Virus record (IMG/VR): IMGVR_UViG_3300004774_000021
Location: 1 to 22,193 of that record
Strand: one strand, 5' to 3'
Length of the DNA stretch: 22,193 nucleotides
Source of the DNA: a virus
In this document: in pieces, positions 2,885 through 11,227 of the stretch
How positions within the stretch are numbered: position 1 is the first letter of the stretch
Layout: each line of letters begins with the position of its first letter
Notes under the pieces: model-generated
Seen by the model: the letters and a program-made list of their open reading frames with translations, nothing else
Told to the model about the DNA's origin: nothing
Databases searched by the model: none
Made by a program: the position numbers and the translations under genes

Positions 2885-2913
2885 AGTATAACAGTTATAA
2901 TGTTGGAGGTCAA
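2885..2913 (-). promoter_or_regulatory. Sigma70-like promoter for the RNase H gene
   Basis: On the minus strand, TTGACC (2913-2908) is followed after exactly 17 bases by TATACT (2890-2885), 5 of 6 matches at both elements. The -35 box overlaps the TGA stop of the upstream 187-residue gene (ATTTGACC). Only 6 bases separate the -10 box from the ATG of RNase H, so the transcript would start at or very near the initiation codon. Confidence 0.65.
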
Positions 2914-3893: not shown

Positions 3894-4199
3894 TTACCTG
3901 CCACGCCGAAAGGCATCTGCCCCTATGCGACTGTATCCAAGATGTCTATTTAGTTCACGACGATCTTCTCGCTTTGCTATTCTTTCTTCTTTTGTTAGAC
4001 GAGGTCTAACAAACTTCATATGCGGAGCAATATCATTGTCAAATATCTGTGCCATTTGTTTCCATAGAAACTCACGCTCAGCTTGTGTTGTACCTGATGA
4101 CAATTTACTAGCAAAGTCTTCACCCTCCGGTTTATCTAGCCCGTAATCATGCCGCCATGTATAGCACATACTAGTAATGATTTGTTCTCTTGTTTTCAT
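3894..4199 (-). CDS. Small charged hypothetical protein, 101 aa
   Basis: The start is taken as the ATG at 4199-4197 (MKTREQIITSMCYTWRHDYG), because GAAAGG stands a few bases upstream. A TTG 12 bases earlier also keeps the frame. The protein is mainly helical, with KPEGEDFASKLSSGTTQAE in the middle and a very basic C-terminus (LTKEERIAKREDRRELNRH, then FRRGR). The basic tail could contact nucleic acid, but no family is recognised. It overlaps the end of the upstream 121-residue gene by 29 bases. Its last codons lie upstream of the chosen start of the next gene. Confidence 0.7.
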   Translation of the reverse strand: MKTREQIITSMCYTWRHDYGLDKPEGEDFASKLSSGTTQAEREFLWKQMAQIFDNDIAPHMKFVRPRLTKEERIAKREDRRELNRHLGYSRIGADAFRRGR

Positions 4200-4536
4200 A
4201 TTCCCTTTCAAATTGTAAATGATGTTTCATTGCTCCACCACAGCAGAACTTATCATTTACTTTAAATTTAACTCCATTTAAAGTAAATGGTCTTATTACA
4301 CGGTCACCATTCCACCAGTTACGCTGACATTCAATATAACCCTCTGCTTCCAGTGTATTTCGTAATGATTTAAACTCGGGACTATCATCATTAGACATGG
4401 TAGTAAACTGATGCGTATCTTTTAGAATCTTAATCAAATCATCTGCTGTAGGATTCTCTGGATTCTCTAGGCAACGATGAACGGAACGAATGTGTACATC
4501 AAATGGCTTTCCTTCGTCAATTACAAAATTCTTCAT
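4171..4536 (-). CDS. Conserved hypothetical phage protein, 121 aa
   Basis: The protein begins MKNFVIDEGKPFDVHIRSVH and continues ENPTADDLIKILKDTHQFTT, FKSLRNTLEAEGYIECQRNW, WNGDRVIRPFTLNGVKFKVN and a Cys-Cys-Gly-Gly segment (FCCGGAMKHH). The arrangement of helices followed by a small beta unit recalls winged-helix DNA-binding proteins, with LRNTLEAEGYI like a recognition helix entering the wing. This is inference from pattern only. Its ATG overlaps the stop of the BI-1 gene, so it belongs to that transcript. Confidence 0.72.
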   Translation of the reverse strand: MKNFVIDEGKPFDVHIRSVHRCLENPENPTADDLIKILKDTHQFTTMSNDDSPEFKSLRNTLEAEGYIECQRNWWNGDRVIRPFTLNGVKFKVNDKFCCGGAMKHHLQFEREYENKRTNHY

Positions 4537-5240
4537 CAGTCGTTTTTATCGCCAAACAATTGTAACAAATTGAGGAAGATGTTGATAAAGTCAAGATATA
4601 GTGTCAACGCACCTGTTACTTCAACTGCTGAACTAGAGTCAACGCTAACCATTTCACGAATTTGTTGTGTGTCGTATGCTGTCAATCCAAGAAAGATAAT
4701 AATAGCAAGGGCACTAATTACCATTTGCATTACAGTACTGCCGATAAAGATATTAACAATACTGGCAATGACAATTGCGATTAGACCAATAAACATAAAC
4801 TTGCCCATACTGTCTAAGCTACGCTTGGTAAAGTATCCATAAAAACTCATTACTCCAAACAAAATTGCTGCGCCCATGAAAGCACTAACAATACTTCCCA
4901 TAGTAAACACAGCAAAGATTGTAGCAAAGCTCAATCCCATTAGTGCCGCGAATCCATATAAACATAATAGAGCAGTACTTTTGCCTGGACTGCGTGCCAG
5001 TATCATCGCAACACCAAATACTGCTGCTAGGGGAGCAAAAATTACGATCCACTTTAAAATACCTGTGAAAAAGAATTTTAACAACTCTGGACTAGTTCCA
5101 ACAAAGTAACTAACCAACATTGATACAATAACTGCTAAACTCATATATCCATAGACGCGACTCATTGCGCTATTAACTTCTTCTGCTGCCCGATAGCTTA
5201 ATGCTATGGTATTGGTATCGATCTGATTTGTATTAAACAT
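4536..5240 (-). CDS. Bax inhibitor-1 / YccA-family membrane protein (TMBIM)
   Basis: The 234-residue protein has about seven hydrophobic segments, the usual size and topology for bacterial BI-1/YccA proteins. Family hallmarks are FGVMSFYGYFTKRSLDSMGK in the middle, FLGLTAYDTQQIRE (Asp190) and LTLYLDFINIFLNLL (Asp217) near the end. The two aspartates correspond to the pair that forms the pH and calcium sensor in the Bacillus homologue YetJ. Known relatives are leak channels or, like E. coli YccA and YbhL, inner-membrane proteins; YccA inhibits the FtsH protease. In a phage it could guard the host membrane or FtsH-dependent proteolysis; that is inference. A strong ribosome site (AGGAG) precedes the ATG. 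The gene follows the phosphoribosyltransferase by 21 bases and is probably read from the same promoter. Confidence 0.9.
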   Translation of the reverse strand: MFNTNQIDTNTIALSYRAAEEVNSAMSRVYGYMSLAVIVSMLVSYFVGTSPELLKFFFTGILKWIVIFAPLAAVFGVAMILARSPGKSTALLCLYGFAALMGLSFATIFAVFTMGSIVSAFMGAAILFGVMSFYGYFTKRSLDSMGKFMFIGLIAIVIASIVNIFIGSTVMQMVISALAIIIFLGLTAYDTQQIREMVSVDSSSAVEVTGALTLYLDFINIFLNLLQLFGDKND

Positions 5241-5261
5241 AATAATCTCCTATTGTAAAAA

Positions 5262-5771
5262 TCATTTATTCCACCAGTTTTCCCATGGGAATTCAATCTG
5301 GCAATCTTCTGTAAACTTGTTAATTGTAACCGAACTATAGTTAATAGCAAGCTCTGATTTACTCACTTCATTATCGTACAGCGTAGCTACACGAGTACTC
5401 TTATTCCATACATGATCCCAACGTTCATCGTGTCCTAAACAGTTACTTTCCCAGTCACGTTTGATCCAATTTAAAGTAGCTCCTGTATCGTTGATATCGT
5501 TAAAAATAAGAATTTGCTTTGGAGAATCCTCGTATCCATATGCATCTTCAGACATCCATAAATTGCTTTCAGATTCTTTGCCATTGTGTACATGAACCTG
5601 TAACGTTTCCATTGGAATATTCAAATATTGACTAATCAGATTAGCAGGAACAAGCCCACCACGAGTAAGTCCAACTACATAGTCAGGCTTCCAGTTATCT
5701 AATTGAATTTGTCGTAGAATGTCATGGCACATACCTTCTATTCCCTGCCAAGTTACTGTTACTTTTTTCAT
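5262..5771 (-). CDS. Phosphoribosyltransferase domain protein, 169 aa
   Basis: The protein has the type I phosphoribosyltransferase layout: a central VVGLTRGGLVPANLISQYLN (Arg37-Gly-Gly) and the PRPP-binding loop ILIFNDINDTGATLN (87-101). In the usual loop the first two acidic residues are Asp-Asp; here they are Asn91-Asp92. Length and the RGG segment are most like xanthine/hypoxanthine phosphoribosyltransferases, which salvage purine bases to nucleotides using PRPP. An aromatic hood region (MSEDAYGYED) could shape substrate choice. The gene starts a transcription unit with the BI-1 gene. Its ribosome site AGGA lies inside an inverted repeat that surrounds the promoter, so expression is probably restricted to transcripts started locally. 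Confidence 0.83.
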   Translation of the reverse strand: MKKVTVTWQGIEGMCHDILRQIQLDNWKPDYVVGLTRGGLVPANLISQYLNIPMETLQVHVHNGKESESNLWMSEDAYGYEDSPKQILIFNDINDTGATLNWIKRDWESNCLGHDERWDHVWNKSTRVATLYDNEVSKSELAINYSSVTINKFTEDCQIEFPWENWWNK

Positions 5772-5777
5772 TGTAAA

Positions 5778-5820
5778 TCCTATAGATTGAGTAAAGTTAT
5801 ATTGTACACGATCTATAGGA
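5778..5820 (-). promoter_or_regulatory. Ten-base inverted repeat hiding the ribosome site of the phosphoribosyltransferase gene
   Basis: TCCTATAGAT (5820-5811 on the minus strand) and ATCTATAGGA (5787-5778) are perfect complements separated by 23 bases. The downstream arm contains AGGA, the ribosome site for the ATG at 5771. A read-through transcript from the sugar cassette would contain both arms and mask this site. A transcript from the promoter whose -10 box is in the loop would lack the first arm and stay translatable. This is the arrangement known for T4 genes e, soc and 49. An operator role for a protein dimer is the alternative. Confidence 0.65.
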
Positions 5821-5829
5821 ATTTGTCAA
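5801..5829 (-). promoter_or_regulatory. Near-consensus sigma70 promoter for the phosphoribosyltransferase and BI-1 genes
   Basis: The minus strand has TTGACA (5829-5824, perfect -35), a 17-base spacer and TACAAT (5806-5801, 5 of 6). The -35 box contains the TGA stop of the epimerase gene. The expected start point near 5794 lies in the loop of the inverted repeat at 5778-5820. Confidence 0.82.
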
Positions 5830-6728
5830 CTTAAAATTTGCCGAATACCTTCTTCAAAACTTAAAGGATTATAGTCAAGCATAATTTCACGCAGCTTAGT
5901 AAGATCAGGCCGACGATTAGCAACAGATCCAGCCATGCTTGGCAATTCTTCAAATACAGCATCTGGATGTCCAAGTTCTGTTGCGATAATACGAACAGCG
6001 TCACCGATTGATATTTCACGGTCATTGCCTACGTTTACTAACACTCGGTTAGCATTTTCAGCAACATATATACTGGCACGAATAGCATCGCTTACGTGAC
6101 AAAATGATCGTGTTTCATGCGAGCCAATGACTGAGAACACCCCATTTTTGATCTTATCAATTTGGTCACCTAAAAAGTGTCCTTTCTTTGAGTTCTCACC
6201 ATATACATTAAAGTAACGTAGCATAACATATGGTAACTCAGAATTTGCTAAAAAGTTCTCGCTAGTGATTTTGGCTAAGCGATAACTCCAACGAGCGTTG
6301 TGTATATCCTTGATGAATACATCTGAGTTTTCAGTAACAGGACTAACGGGGTCATCGGCAACAACTTCTGAGCTAGATGCGTATATCAATCGTTTTAAGT
6401 TTTTACATTTGGCTGCAAAGTTGAATACATTGATATCACTGACAAAGTTATTTTCCAATACCTTGTTTGGAATTTTATAAAAATTGGTTGTACCATTAAT
6501 AGCACCATAGTGATAAATGTAATCAAAATCACGAGGTAGTGATGATAGGCCAATAAATCTATCATTGGCTAACAGATCCATTTTATGCCATTCATCACAC
6601 GGAGGAATAGTTTCGCTGCGACTATGGTTATCTACTGCCCAAACTTCATGCCCTGCTTCTTTAAGTTGGTGACAAAATTCTGTGCCTAATAGACCACTGG
6701 CTCCTGTTACTAAGATTTTACTCATCAT
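5826..6728 (-). CDS. NAD-dependent sugar epimerase/dehydratase, 300 aa
   Basis: This is an extended short-chain dehydrogenase of the nucleotide-sugar epimerase class. It shows the Rossmann motif TGASGLLG (8-15), the strand-end IYASSSEV (115-122) with the catalytic Ser, the YxxxK pair Tyr149/Lys153 (YRLAK), RYFNVYG (171-177), and the substrate-side RSFCHVSDAI. Length is typical (about 300-340). Members convert UDP-, GDP- or dTDP-linked sugars (4-epimerisation, dehydration or reduction); which one is not visible. Two adjacent ATGs (6728 and 6725) follow AAGGTGA; either could be used. It overlaps the dehydrogenase gene by 11 bases and closes the six-gene sugar cassette. Confidence 0.88.
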   Translation of the reverse strand: MMSKILVTGASGLLGTEFCHQLKEAGHEVWAVDNHSRSETIPPCDEWHKMDLLANDRFIGLSSLPRDFDYIYHYGAINGTTNFYKIPNKVLENNFVSDINVFNFAAKCKNLKRLIYASSSEVVADDPVSPVTENSDVFIKDIHNARWSYRLAKITSENFLANSELPYVMLRYFNVYGENSKKGHFLGDQIDKIKNGVFSVIGSHETRSFCHVSDAIRASIYVAENANRVLVNVGNDREISIGDAVRIIATELGHPDAVFEELPSMAGSVANRRPDLTKLREIMLDYNPLSFEEGIRQILS

Positions 6729-7494
6729 TCACCTTTGCGTTGTCATCAATAAGAGCTTGAATCATTGAAAACTTTAGGCCCAAACTTTTAACCAAATTGT
6801 TCCATGCGCTAGTATCCTTGGGCAAACAATGTCCGCCAAATCCACGAAGATTTTCATTGCACATTAGATAAGCTGGATTAATACTATCACGTTGAATGAT
6901 AGCGTTGTATACATTGTTGTAATCTACCCCTAGCTTTTTGCATACTTCATATGCAATATTGGCAAATATAATTTGTGTAGCATGATTGACGTTGTTAAAG
7001 TATTTTACAACTTCTGCCTCAGCAGGCTTAACACAAGCAACGTTCTTTGGTAGGTTACCATGTATTGCCTTCATCATGACATAATCTTCTTCACGAGTAC
7101 TGCCAATAATTAACAGATCGTGATTATACATAAAGTCAGCTAGTGCTGTCTTGGCACGAAGAAATTCTGGAACTGAACAAATGCGTAGATTAGGATGAGA
7201 GGCTGATAAGAGATCACTTGTGCCTGGAACTACTGTACTTTTAATACCCACTAGTCCTTTGTAACCAGCAGAGTCTAATTCTGATACTACACTTTCTACG
7301 ATACTGGTATCGCAATCACCATTTGCAGCTTGGTTAGTTGGTACGCTAATAAACACACAATCAGTATCTAATACATCACTAAGAGTTGATCCATCATATG
7401 CAGGATCAAAGAAACTCATTTGATGTCCTAGGTGATTAAGTCCTTCATAAACTGCTTTGCCTACTGTTCCTTTGCCTATAATTCCGATTTTCAT
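6718..7494 (-). CDS. Shortened UDP-glucose/GDP-mannose dehydrogenase-family protein, 258 aa
   Basis: The N-terminal Rossmann domain has GIIGKGTVGKAVYEGL (4-19), then VFISVPTNQ, KSTVVPGTS and CSVPEFLRAKTALADF. The central helical domain has EAEVVKYFNNV with Lys164 and FANIAYEVCKKLGVDY, then the active-site segment GFGGHCLPKD with Cys223. Family enzymes oxidise the C6 hydroxyl of a UDP- or GDP-sugar twice using two NAD+. They normally have about 390-450 residues with a third, C-terminal domain that helps bind the nucleotide. Here the protein ends about 30 residues after the catalytic Cys, and the next gene overlaps its stop. It may be a reduced enzyme with a different substrate or partner, or inactive. 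Confidence 0.85.
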   Translation of the reverse strand: MKIGIIGKGTVGKAVYEGLNHLGHQMSFFDPAYDGSTLSDVLDTDCVFISVPTNQAANGDCDTSIVESVVSELDSAGYKGLVGIKSTVVPGTSDLLSASHPNLRICSVPEFLRAKTALADFMYNHDLLIIGSTREEDYVMMKAIHGNLPKNVACVKPAEAEVVKYFNNVNHATQIIFANIAYEVCKKLGVDYNNVYNAIIQRDSINPAYLMCNENLRGFGGHCLPKDTSAWNNLVKSLGLKFSMIQALIDDNAKVNDE

Positions 7495-8087
7495 TTTGTT
7501 TCCTCTGGATACTTCATATCAACTAAATTGCTGCTATTAGTTGATGTCATAGTTAAAATTGCTTGTGCTACATCTTCAGGCTCTAGACAAATATCTTTAG
7601 TTGACATATCTATCATTGGTGTACGAGTTTTTACTGGATTAATTAAACTTATTGATACATTAGATCCTTCAAAATACTCGCTGGCACCTTGCCATACATT
7701 ATATAGTGCGGATTTACTGGCGGCGTATAAAATGTAGCTCTTGCGACCAGATTTATAGGCACTAGATCCGACCATAATAATTTTAACTGGTTTGGTACTA
7801 ATATTGTCTATATAATGTTTGATAATGCTCCAATTTGAGCCAACATTAATATTCATTGTTTTGAAATGAGATTCTTTATTGGTAACGTCAAAATGCCCGA
7901 CGCAGTTAACAACCACGTCAGGCATAATTTTTCTCAATAACTCATCTACGTGAGCTTGACTTTCGGCCAGCTCAAAATTAACTATTTTACTACCAAAAGA
8001 ATGTACAACATATCCGGAGGCACTGAAGGCATCGCAGGTAGCTTTACCTATTCCACCAGTTCCTCCAAATACAACTACTGTTTTCAT
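7491..8087 (-). CDS. Short-chain dehydrogenase/reductase, 198 aa
   Basis: The protein shows a classical SDR fold: GGTGGIG at 8-14 for the dinucleotide, NCVG (61-64) in place of the common NNAG, VGSSAYKSG with the catalytic Ser (108 or 109), and Tyr121/Lys125 in YAASKSALYN. It is shorter than most SDRs (about 250), mainly through a short C-terminal substrate lid. Such enzymes reduce or oxidise keto/hydroxyl groups with NAD(P)H. In this setting it most likely reduces a keto-sugar intermediate made by neighbouring enzymes. Both ends overlap neighbouring genes by 4 bases (ATGA), so translation is coupled. Start ATG at 8087. Confidence 0.87.
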   Translation of the reverse strand: MKTVVVFGGTGGIGKATCDAFSASGYVVHSFGSKIVNFELAESQAHVDELLRKIMPDVVVNCVGHFDVTNKESHFKTMNINVGSNWSIIKHYIDNISTKPVKIIMVGSSAYKSGRKSYILYAASKSALYNVWQGASEYFEGSNVSISLINPVKTRTPMIDMSTKDICLEPEDVAQAILTMTSTNSSNLVDMKYPEETK

Positions 8088-8491
8088 GCAGGAATAATAG
8101 AATCAACTCTTACTGTATCTTTTTCGTAATCTTCGCCGCCACGAGGGCCTTCAGCAAAGGCTATAAAAACACATCCATTTGCCCCGGCTTTCATGGCGTG
8201 TATTTCTGTTGGATCACTAATAATAAAATCTCCGGGAACAGCATCATATGCTGAAACTGATTCAGATTTATCCATGGGTTGCGAATAGTAAGTTAAATTA
8301 CCGGCAAGAATATACGTATACTGAATTGTATGATTGTGGTAGTGATTTCCACGGACAGCACCAGGGGTATTACTAATTACACAGCCATGATTGATAGATT
8401 TCTTATAAAAGATATCTGTAATAGAACCACGATCATCTTTGAATGATCCTAGCCCTGATTCAGAATTCTCTACGATATTATAATGCTTCAT
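8084..8491 (-). CDS. Cupin sugar isomerase/epimerase-like protein (RmlC / WxcM / FdtA type), 135 aa
   Basis: The single-domain cupin shows RGNHYHNHTIQYTYILAG (47-64) as the first motif, with His50 and His52, and GDFIISDPTEIHAM as the second. An N-terminal FKDDRGSITDIF resembles the opening strand of RmlC-like sugar 3,5-epimerases and 3,4-ketoisomerases. Length fits the compact WxcM/FdtA group. Such proteins act on dTDP-4-keto-6-deoxyhexoses or related nucleotide sugars. Gln57 stands where many metal cupins have Glu, which fits sugar epimerase-type cupins better than dioxygenases. It overlaps both neighbours by 4 bases. Confidence 0.82.
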   Translation of the reverse strand: MKHYNIVENSESGLGSFKDDRGSITDIFYKKSINHGCVISNTPGAVRGNHYHNHTIQYTYILAGNLTYYSQPMDKSESVSAYDAVPGDFIISDPTEIHAMKAGANGCVFIAFAEGPRGGEDYEKDTVRVDSIIPA

Positions 8492-9717
8492 TGTGATAGG
8501 AACCTTGTATTAGGATTAATTTTTAACAACGCCTGTTTAAGAGGCTCACCGATGTTCCATGACAGAACTAGGGCATAGGGTTTTTCATGTAGAGCAAATT
8601 CTTCATCACCCTTAATAGGAATTCGTGATAGAGGAGTATATTTACCCTGTTTAAACTCACTGGCATCAGTTATGCAATGTAGAAGAGTTTTATCTAGCTT
8701 GTGCCAGTTAAGCCAGGTGTTTGCCTTAGCAGCAGCACCTACTCCAATAATAACAGCATCAGGTTCGTCAGCTAAAATTTGATAAAATTTACGGAGCCAT
8801 TCATTGCGTTGTTGTTCAAATTTTGTTTGCAGTTTGTTATAAAATTTATAACTAAACAAACCCATTGCGGTTTCTTTTTCAATGGCGCTTTGAATTAACG
8901 CTGGCATTCCATTGCCTATATCCATTTTAGCAATAACACGAAGACTACCACCGTGGTAATCAACCACATCATAATCTACAATTGTCATTCCAACTTGTTG
9001 TAGTAAATTCCATACACTCTTAACTGTAAAATAAGAAATATGTTCGTGATATACCATGTCTACAAAGCGATCACTTTCAATCATACTGGCCCAATACGGC
9101 ACTTCAAATACAAACATACCTTCATTGTCTAGCAAATGTGTTACACCAACCGCAAAATCAATTGGATCATTTGCATGATTGAATACATTGTTTGCCATAA
9201 TCAAACTGGCTCGTCCATGTATATGTTCTAGTTTATCAGCTAAATCAATATTAAACAATCCCTTAACTGTGTTAACACCAGCTGCCTTGGCAATCTTGCA
9301 CATATCTTTAGATGAATCAACACCCAGTGCTGTAACACCTGATTCTTGAAATTGTTTAATTAAGTAGCCATCATTGCTGCCAATTTCTACTACTAATCCT
9401 TGCGGGTTAAATCTACTCTTGATAGTAGTTGCATATTCATCCCAATGATCTCTTGCCGTTTTGGAGTTGGAACTTGTATAACTATAACTGTATAAGTTAT
9501 AGCGATCCTTGGCATCACTAGCATAACCTAGCTGAATACCACCTGACTCTGAACTTAAGTATAACTGAAGTGGGAATACAGGCTCGGATAAGTTTAGTTG
9601 ATTTTCAGCAATGAATGTATCAGCGTATGCGTGTTGACCAAAATCTAAAATTTTGGTTACAGGAGCATTGCTGATTACGCATTGCCATAAATGTTTACTT
9701 TCTGTAATTTTGCTCAT
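8488..9717 (-). CDS. SAM-dependent C-methyltransferase-like protein (NovU/TylC3 type), 409 aa
   Basis: Three parts are visible: an N-terminal section (1-60) that in relatives holds a zinc site, a Rossmann SAM-binding domain with VVEIGSNDGYLIKQF (109-123) and GVDSS (132-136), and a C-terminal domain with GVGAAAKANTWLNW. This order matches sugar C-methyltransferases such as NovU and TylC3, which methylate C3 or C5 of dTDP-4-keto sugars. The N-terminal part has only Cys13 of the usual CxxC pairs (QCVISNAPVTKILDFG), so the zinc site looks lost. It overlaps the glycosyltransferase and cupin genes by 4 bases. The context supports methylation of an unusual deoxysugar. Confidence 0.87.
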   Translation of the reverse strand: MSKITESKHLWQCVISNAPVTKILDFGQHAYADTFIAENQLNLSEPVFPLQLYLSSESGGIQLGYASDAKDRYNLYSYSYTSSNSKTARDHWDEYATTIKSRFNPQGLVVEIGSNDGYLIKQFQESGVTALGVDSSKDMCKIAKAAGVNTVKGLFNIDLADKLEHIHGRASLIMANNVFNHANDPIDFAVGVTHLLDNEGMFVFEVPYWASMIESDRFVDMVYHEHISYFTVKSVWNLLQQVGMTIVDYDVVDYHGGSLRVIAKMDIGNGMPALIQSAIEKETAMGLFSYKFYNKLQTKFEQQRNEWLRKFYQILADEPDAVIIGVGAAAKANTWLNWHKLDKTLLHCITDASEFKQGKYTPLSRIPIKGDEEFALHEKPYALVLSWNIGEPLKQALLKINPNTRFLSQ

Positions 9718-10544
9718 TGTTTTTGTACCGAAGTTTGTGCCATTTGTTTGTTGATATCATTGGCCCTGAGTTTTTCCCAGGGGTCTTGTTTTCCCATTTT
9801 AACATTATGCCAGAAAGTAAGATCTACTCCCCTAGTGGCTAAATGTTTTGAGATAAATTCAGCATCCATTAGCCTACCATTGCCATACGATGTATGATGA
9901 AAGTCCAGCGGATTGCTGGGATTACCTTCTAGTATATCACGTTTTTGGTAAGTATGATCATTATTATTACCAGTTAAATCGTGTCTATCATGTGTAGCAT
10001 AGATTTCTACAATCTCCATAATGTCTAACATATAAGCAATTTGGCTAAGTTCTGCATCTGTCATTTGATGCCTAGTTACAAATCCAAATAAATCATACCA
10101 TTCTTTTGGATAGATAGGAAAAATAGAATATGGATGTTCACGATGAACGTGGATTTTAAGCAACTTGAATTCTCCTGTGTGACTAGTTACAACTTTGTCC
10201 CAGCCAGTAGTTTCCATTAGAGCGTCATCATTCCACACAAACAACCAATCAGCAGTTGCTTGAGTTGCTAATCCATTATAGTATCGGTTTAGCCCATTGT
10301 AACCCATGGGTTCAAATATCATTACACTATAATGTATACCTTTGTCTTCTAACCAAGGTTGTATTTCTCTGGAAAAGTATCCCAATCCTATTTCGTCATC
10401 TTTATCAAATCCCAATAATAATTGTACTGTTTCTAATTCAAGTACACGATTGAAAATACTAATGATACTGAGTTTTAATGCGGTGGTTCTACCTCTAGTG
10501 GGTAGTAATACTGCTATCTTATATTCGTTTGTGATGCTAGCCAT
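9714..10544 (-). CDS. Glycosyltransferase-like protein (GT-A / family 2 type), 276 aa
   Basis: The N-terminus has the nucleotide-binding opening VLLPTRGRTTALKLSI (12-27), followed by LLLGFDKDDE (42-51). An acidic metal motif comes after a strand: WLFVWNDDALM (100-110) with Asp106 and Asp107. This is the GT-A arrangement. The C-terminal half (HDRHDLTGNNNDHTY, FHHTSYGNGRLMDAEFI, VDLTFWHNVKMGKQDPW) is unlike standard GT2 enzymes and may hold the acceptor site. It heads the sugar cassette and could place the finished sugar on a phage or host acceptor; donor and acceptor are unknown. The ribosome site AAAGGA precedes ATG 10544. Confidence 0.8.
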   Translation of the reverse strand: MASITNEYKIAVLLPTRGRTTALKLSIISIFNRVLELETVQLLLGFDKDDEIGLGYFSREIQPWLEDKGIHYSVMIFEPMGYNGLNRYYNGLATQATADWLFVWNDDALMETTGWDKVVTSHTGEFKLLKIHVHREHPYSIFPIYPKEWYDLFGFVTRHQMTDAELSQIAYMLDIMEIVEIYATHDRHDLTGNNNDHTYQKRDILEGNPSNPLDFHHTSYGNGRLMDAEFISKHLATRGVDLTFWHNVKMGKQDPWEKLRANDINKQMAQTSVQKQ

Positions 10545-10566
10545 TGTTGTCCTTTTACAGTTAAAT

Positions 10567-10574
10567 TATTTACT
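10567..10574 (-). promoter_or_regulatory. Possible late-type promoter element AGTAAATA before the sugar cassette
   Basis: The 51-base gap ahead of the glycosyltransferase gene holds AGTAAATA on the minus strand (6 of 8 to the T4 late element). It lies inside a short inverted repeat, TACAGT (10575-10570) and ACTGTA (10559-10554), which ends just before the ribosome site. No convincing -35/-10 pair is present, so this is the only candidate initiation signal I see for the six-gene cassette. Weak evidence. Confidence 0.25.
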
Positions 10575-10595
10575 GTATAATACTAGTAGTTAATT

Positions 10596-10919
10596 TTATT
10601 TGCTCTGTTCAGCAAGTGTTGTGATAACCTTAAATTTATCACACGCCTCTAGCCATTCAGCAAGGGCATCTTGAATGGTTACATTATTAGGGGCACGGAC
10701 TTTCACATATTCTGTAACCTCACTTACAGATTTTTCTATATGGTGTCTTATAGAACTTAATTCAACGTCCATGGAAATAGTGATCCATGTCAAGCCATTC
10801 CAAGTTTCCATCTGGCCTGTGATATTATTCATACGCAAAGTGCCGGCTGCTAGGGTAACATTGGGAGTGTTATACCCACTGCCACTATTTGTTACTATGA
10901 TGGAAGTTACTAAACTCAT
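10596..10919 (-). CDS. Small phage protein with GSGY motif, paralogue of the 11747-12106 gene, 107 aa
   Basis: The N-terminus, TSIIVTNSGSGYNTPNVTL, resembles the beta-strand motif common in phage tail and fibre proteins. Next comes GTLRMNNITGQMETWNGLTWITI, then a helical C-terminal half ending TIQDALAEWLEACDKFKVI. The central and C-terminal parts line up with the 119-residue protein at 11747-12106 (VLRMVNGTYQVYDGSSWMPF, TVADALASVKEAEEKLKLV), so the two are paralogues. A related family of small proteins is familiar in T4-like aquatic phages, with no proven role; the Gly-Trp beta unit suggests a virion or decoration part. It overlaps the previous gene by 4 bases. Confidence 0.78.
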   Translation of the reverse strand: MSLVTSIIVTNSGSGYNTPNVTLAAGTLRMNNITGQMETWNGLTWITISMDVELSSIRHHIEKSVSEVTEYVKVRAPNNVTIQDALAEWLEACDKFKVITTLAEQSK

Positions 10920-11227
10920 CTACGCAGCATTTCCATTGATACTAACTGCCCCACTGTATGAGCAACATCTTGTCCCTCTGGAATAACATGTGTAACAGTT
11001 TCCCATTCATGTTCTTTCTTATCCCATGATTTAATTTCTAAAACGCATCCACCACGAGCAGGAAGAACAGAGAATTTAATAGACTTGCTCATGTTGATTT
11101 CATGCTCATCTACCTCACGACTTGACATTAACTTCATATCTGTTTCTTCCACAACGTGTGGTTCATTGAACTGATCACGTTGTGCGTCTGCTACCCATTT
11201 AAGTAGTAATTTTTTAGCCCATTTCAT
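10916..11227 (-). CDS. Conserved hypothetical phage protein, 103 aa
   Basis: The protein starts MKWAKKLLLKWVADAQRDQF, a basic amphipathic helix, and then has a beta-rich part: SIKFSVLPARGGCVLEIKSW and WETVTHVIPEGQDVAHTVGQ. It closes with LVSMEMLRR. The segment INFSV/IKFSVxxxxGGxVxE is one I associate with a recurrent small protein of T4-like aquatic phages. No catalytic or binding motif is visible. Start ATG 11227 and stop overlap neighbours by 4 bases each, placing it in the same coupled unit as the CDGSH-like protein. Confidence 0.77.
   Translation of the reverse strand: MKWAKKLLLKWVADAQRDQFNEPHVVEETDMKLMSSREVDEHEINMSKSIKFSVLPARGGCVLEIKSWDKKEHEWETVTHVIPEGQDVAHTVGQLVSMEMLRR

Follow-up and report, generated by a model that had tools for sequence, protein, structure and literature searches.

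The window analysed here (the whole 22,193-nucleotide [nt] stretch of IMG/VR virus record IMGVR_UViG_3300004774_000021) carries a minus-strand phosphoribosyltransferase gene that directly follows a six-gene sugar cassette and is itself followed by a gene for a Bax1-I/YccA-like membrane protein. The genes and the promoter box upstream of them are as follows:

4536..5240, minus strand: Bax1-I/YccA-like membrane protein gene, downstream of the phosphoribosyltransferase gene and with its own Shine-Dalgarno (SD) sequence
5262..5771, minus strand: purine-salvage-type phosphoribosyltransferase gene (169 amino acids [aa], PF00156), the nearest solved relatives of which are purine/xanthine phosphoribosyltransferases
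5826..6728, minus strand: NAD-dependent sugar epimerase gene, the last of the cassette, ending 54 nt before the phosphoribosyltransferase start
5826..10544, minus strand: six-gene sugar cassette (GT-like, C-methyltransferase, cupin, SDR, UDP-sugar dehydrogenase and epimerase), the proposed source of read-through RNA
10567..10573, minus strand: putative late promoter box GTAAATA of the T4 type, 22 nt upstream of the first cassette gene

The cassette genes overlap or abut one another, and no terminator is predicted between the cassette and the phosphoribosyltransferase gene. The junction between epimerase and phosphoribosyltransferase (5829-5769, minus strand) was read directly as TTGACAAATTCCTATAGATCGTGTACAATATAACTTTACTCAATCTATAGGATTTACAATG and contains a putative promoter nested in an inverted repeat; no transposase adjoins this element among the window genes scanned. 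Its parts are:

5824..5829, minus strand: -35 box TTGACA, overlapping the epimerase UGA stop codon (5828-5826) and present in 12/12 of the sequences described below
5811..5820, minus strand: 5' arm of the hairpin, TCCTATAGAT, lying entirely within the promoter's 17-nt spacer, with an imperfect extension over 5805-5823
5801..5806, minus strand: -10 box TACAAT, in the loop or inner stem of the hairpin
5793..5795, minus strand: probable transcription start, placed from the box positions approximately 7 nt past the -10 box, in the loop and 3' of the 5' arm
5778..5787, minus strand: 3' arm of the hairpin, ATCTATAGGA, with an imperfect extension over 5775-5793
5778..5781, minus strand: SD sequence AGGA, entirely within the 3' arm and six bases 5' of the ATG at 5771

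Arms TCCTATAGAT and ATCTATAGGA are exactly complementary. The claim of an earlier, sequence-only reading that a perfect 10-base repeat encloses TACAAT, with TTGACA 17 bases upstream and AGGA in the downstream arm, was confirmed. Extended without gaps, the arms form a 19-nt repeat that is 84% complementary, the longest inverted repeat in the window under an 80-nt limit. The folding comparison proposed in the same reading also came out in its favour: RNA from 5835 to 5760 has a folding energy of -14.9 kcal/mol, whereas shuffled sequences give -7.8 ± 2.4 (z = -2.9; 2 of 200 shuffles as good). The promoter matches the consensus at 11 of 12 positions, level with the best of the 43 promoter-like sites in the first 12 kb; by itself this score is unremarkable, because the DNA is AT-rich and 46.6 such sites are expected. 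What lifts the element above chance is its conservation in 12 distinct sequences and the rank of its leader among the genes of its relatives. No Rfam family scored above its gathering threshold in window positions 5000-11000, and a nucleotide search of annotated phages with the region returned no match. Elsewhere in the window, a perfect 14-bp inverted repeat with an 8-nt loop lies at 4254-4289, within a 121-aa open reading frame (4171-4536).

A scan of viral contigs for the phosphoribosyltransferase yielded 80 loci, and pattern scans were added; together they recovered the element in twelve distinct viral sequences, the window included. The DNA polymerase of these uncultured T4-like phages is closest to those of jumbo-like phages of Sinorhizobium and Agrobacterium. 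Promoter, both arms and SD position are kept in all twelve, and each leader folds into a long stem (-11.3 to -20.8 kcal/mol). The -10 box is TATAAT or TACAAT in 11 of the 12 and TAGAAT in L010, and the boxes are 17 or 18 nt apart; with TTGACA and a TATAAT-like box 16-18 nt apart and conserved in relatives, the element has the makings of a sigma70-type promoter. The epimerase and sugar cassette lie directly upstream in every element-bearing sequence, and phosphoribosyltransferase relatives that have no upstream epimerase do not have the element. A second candidate for a hairpin-nested sigma70 promoter (G001:56981) was rejected, because L175, a contig bearing the window's gene itself, does not preserve the stem.

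The loop itself differs among the twelve. Seven sequences (L005, L011, L012, L014, L018, L152 and L194) carry a late box, NTAAATA, in the loop, where it reads CTAAATA or TTAAATA and lies 20-21 nt before the ATG, the arrangement of T4 gene e. The same motif was looked for in the loops of the window and its four near relatives and was not found; only the sigma70-type promoter is present there. L005 has the loop late box yet groups with the window by protein (moderate support), so that loss of the box in the window's group is one reading of its absence; recombination is another.

The pairing of the arms was counted in a register set by hand for all 12 sequences, since a MAFFT alignment of all 12 places a one-base gap off the bulge, and also in the seven rows that align without gaps. 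In the hand register the outer ten pairs hardly vary: pair 3 shows C-G or, in three sequences, U-G, and pair 6 shows A-U or G-U. Further in, pair 13 is G-C or G-U, and pair 15 is G-C, A-U or G-U, with two sequences changed on both sides (the sole compensatory pair); in the window's group, mismatches occur at pairs 12 and 14. L011 has lost one base from its 5' arm, a deletion that the stem accommodates as a bulge. Among the seven ungapped sequences, 95% of cells are paired, compared to 27–59% when the arms are slid against one another, and 68 of 500 shuffles attain the covariation score. Conservation of pairing is strong, while covariation proper is weak and thin because few changes have occurred; the bulk of the support comes from invariance and from one-sided changes that keep a wobble pair. 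The sequence-only reading had proposed related phages as a check on the arms, and the outcome is in keeping with a hairpin: both arms are kept in 12/12, with wobble-keeping changes, one compensatory pair and one bulged 1-nt deletion.

These arm changes also bear on the idea that the repeat is a DNA operator, in which a phage regulator would bind both arms and repress or loop the promoter, the RNA hairpin being incidental. The arms do lie in the spacer and just past the start, where a block of the promoter would be expected, and in the window each contains the self-complementary hexamer CTATAG, the arm centres being 33 bp (about three helical turns) apart. Against this, the changes are of the kind that RNA tolerates (U-G for C-G in three sequences, G-U for A-U, and A-U for G-C with a G-U intermediate), and L018 and L011 have lost the CTATAG core of the 5' arm but retain most of the pairing. 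Moreover, the SD sequence is always in the 3' arm, and further copies of the arm sequence in the window are no more frequent than chance predicts. The wobble-keeping changes favour RNA rather than a DNA operator as the conserved signal, and we regard the operator as improbable.

The reading that we prefer, at a probability of roughly 0.7, is that the element is a cis-acting translation switch set by the position at which the RNA starts. Partition-function folding gives the behaviour that such a switch would need: the probability that the SD sequence is unpaired is 0.002–0.032 on read-through RNA and 0.39–0.94 on RNA from the presumed local start in all 12 sequences. The T4 gene e leader, taken from its sequence record as a control and put through the same computation, gave 0.001 (long) and 0.85 (local), so that the comparison with gene e drawn in the sequence-only reading gains computational support. 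Across 326 gene starts in four relatives and the window, the median accessibility on long RNA is 0.50, and the element leaders fall in the lowest 2.5–5%. They also hold ranks 1, 2, 5 and 6 for gain in SD accessibility among the 44 promoter-proximal genes of these genomes (those with a promoter-like site at a suitable distance), and their duplexes between promoter region and SD sequence are outliers relative to the promoters of relatives (z = -5.2, -4.4 and -3.2).

Two further readings accept the hairpin and give it a different role. By translational coupling, ribosomes finishing the epimerase would open the stem, and read-through RNA would be translated in step with the cassette. The epimerase stop codon is 5 nt from the stem, a distance that falls inside the footprint of a terminating ribosome, and the upstream ribosome could open the stem transiently. 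However, read in the same way, the stop codon of T4 nudE is approximately 7 nt from the gene e stem, a similar distance, yet gene e is reported to be repressed approximately 100-fold on long RNA (PMC3014915), and a coupling device would need no separate promoter in the loop. Coupling as the main function is about as doubtful as the operator.

Alternatively, the hairpin may serve the cassette message, as a 3'-end stabiliser or an RNase processing site, with masking of the SD sequence a side effect. It does lie directly 3' of the last cassette gene, it is found only with the cassette, and stems of 10-18 bp are able to protect RNA ends. The stem is followed by TTTACAATG and not by a U-run, however, and no intrinsic terminator (GC-rich stem plus U-run) is predicted at this point; a stabiliser would also require neither an SD sequence in the arm nor a promoter in the loop, yet both are kept in 12/12. 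We consider this role slightly less probable still. On the sequence evidence, translation of the phosphoribosyltransferase is most likely confined to RNA that begins in the loop, as the translation switch would have it.

The timing of such a switch depends on the promoter classes of these phages, of which two are apparent. CTAAATA is the most enriched 7-mer before genes in the relatives, and 43 of 347 starts have NTAAATA 14-28 nt upstream (against 8.2 expected; shuffle maximum 15), a count restricted to this distance class and leaving out boxes far from starts. The first base of the boxes is A in 18, C in 14, G in 6 and T in 5, and the genes that they precede include those for endolysin, baseplate wedge, tail fibre and virion proteins. 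GTAAATA before the first sugar-cassette gene is conserved in all nine of the cassettes that include that end. Late promoters of the T4 type read TATAAATA, with CTAAATA in phage Aeh1 (PMC1524935). As in T4 and Aeh1, NTAAATA stands close before late genes and a gp55 homologue is present in the genome: that of G001 matches the PHROG 'sigma factor for late transcription' at E = 4.5e-72, and G002 has a weaker match to T4 gp55. Boxes and homologue together match what would be expected of a T4-type late system, with the difference that here the first base of the box may be A, C, G or T. No general sigma70 region 2 protein was found in the relatives, and T4 Mot-box middle promoters are represented by isolated matches only.

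Boxes of the second, sigma70 type are biased to the coding strand (18 versus 0 in G001, the largest; reversed-pattern controls gave 2 and 4). They precede genes for the clamp loader, late sigma factor, protease and QueD, and it is from the kinds of genes preceded that we infer early use of this class. The late sigma factor homologue itself (L395 2142-3062; G001:140742) has a sigma70-type promoter and lies in a divergent region opposite a virion protein gene with a late box of its own. The spacer of the nested promoter was also considered as an extended promoter consensus, a possibility rejected because the spacers of the other sigma70-type promoters in these phages are unrelated, also to one another. 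Another promoter-like site in the window, TTGACC-17-TATACT (2885-2913, minus strand), ends 6 nt before the first ATG of an exonuclease gene, the true start of which may lie further in, or the message may be leaderless.

With a late box before the cassette, abutting genes and no predicted terminator, late RNA should run into the hairpin. Such RNA, started at the late promoter, would have both arms and form a hairpin of 10-17 bp that hides the SD sequence of the phosphoribosyltransferase gene, whereas RNA from the sigma70-type promoter would start in the loop, lack the 5' arm and be translated. Expression of the phosphoribosyltransferase in the window's group would accordingly depend on its own promoter, early in infection, with late read-through RNA left untranslated for this gene; for the sister group, the loop late box would provide a second, late and translatable start. 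Promoter use, its timing and the degree of translational silence are all matters of prediction. Two claims of the sequence-only reading are narrowed by this comparison. Timing reversed relative to T4 is consistent with the window's group, which has the cassette late box and, in these phages, sigma70-type boxes before early functions, but it is not universal, as a late box in the loop rules out the silencing of late RNA as a general purpose in the sister group. Silencing of a gene pair holds for the phosphoribosyltransferase but is too wide: the Bax1-I/YccA-like gene, which has its own SD sequence, occurs only in the window's group and is missing from approximately half of the hairpin-bearing relatives. 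The product of this gene (4536-5240) has a Pfam E value of 4e-54 and a weak match to the FtsH modulator YccA; carriage of such a protein by a phage makes modulation of FtsH by the phage possible.

The mechanism class is known. In the leaders of T4 e, soc, 49 and I-TevI and of Aeh1 mobE, the SD sequence is masked on read-through RNA, and a promoter in the upstream arm or loop yields RNA that has no 5' arm (PMC3014915, PMC2988022). The window's leader is predicted to resemble these in that its SD sequence falls within the 3' arm of a hairpin that is stable and requires upstream sequence to form, and in that a promoter transcript without the 5' arm would, by sequence and folding, expose it; with gene e it shares the same contrast in computed accessibility. 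The difference is in the promoters. In T4 it is a late promoter that occupies the loop and early RNA that is silenced; the window's loop appears to have a sigma70-type promoter instead, and the read-through RNA seems to come from a late-box operon, while the sister group carries both promoter types in the loop. Because a T4-type late promoter seems to be present in the loops of the other seven sequences and not in those of the window and its four near relatives, the window's group is not a strict gene e-type member; it represents a variant of the class, in which the nested promoter is an early one placed behind a late operon.

A promoter of the host sigma70 type lies within an inverted repeat in the transposase leaders of IS10/Tn10 and IS50, where read-through RNA hides the ribosome binding site, local RNA does not, and the mobile element is protected from outside transcription. 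By this analogy, a sigma70-type promoter in a hairpin that masks a ribosome binding site is not without precedent. The likeness is one of described mechanism, and here the gene is a phage gene behind a late operon of the same genome. We give about even odds to the more specific reading that the window's element is the T4 lysozyme switch in mirror image, with a hairpin keeping an early, host-sigma70-promoted gene silent on late-operon RNA, and that the sister group nests early and late promoters in one loop, the two time classes being served by a single hairpin. The element would place a T4 lysozyme-type leader in phages whose polymerase is nearest that of the Sinorhizobium/Agrobacterium jumbo-like phages, and would give such leaders a second time logic, in which an early gene is shielded from late read-through. 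This suggests that late-operon read-through in these phages is common enough to need insulation, and the natural variants with and without the loop late box make the purpose of such leaders testable.

Leaders with late boxes in SD-masking stems occur elsewhere in the same phage group. At L390 ~14438 (G001:54038), a leader of the T4 gene e type, its stem containing a TATAAATA late box, precedes a gene for a 265-aa nuclease-like protein (SD accessibility 0.00 on long and 0.67 on short RNA). At L406 ~8438 (G005:48038), the 5' arm of the stem holds TTAAATA, and the leader precedes a gene for a 319-aa protein (0.01 long, 0.65 short).
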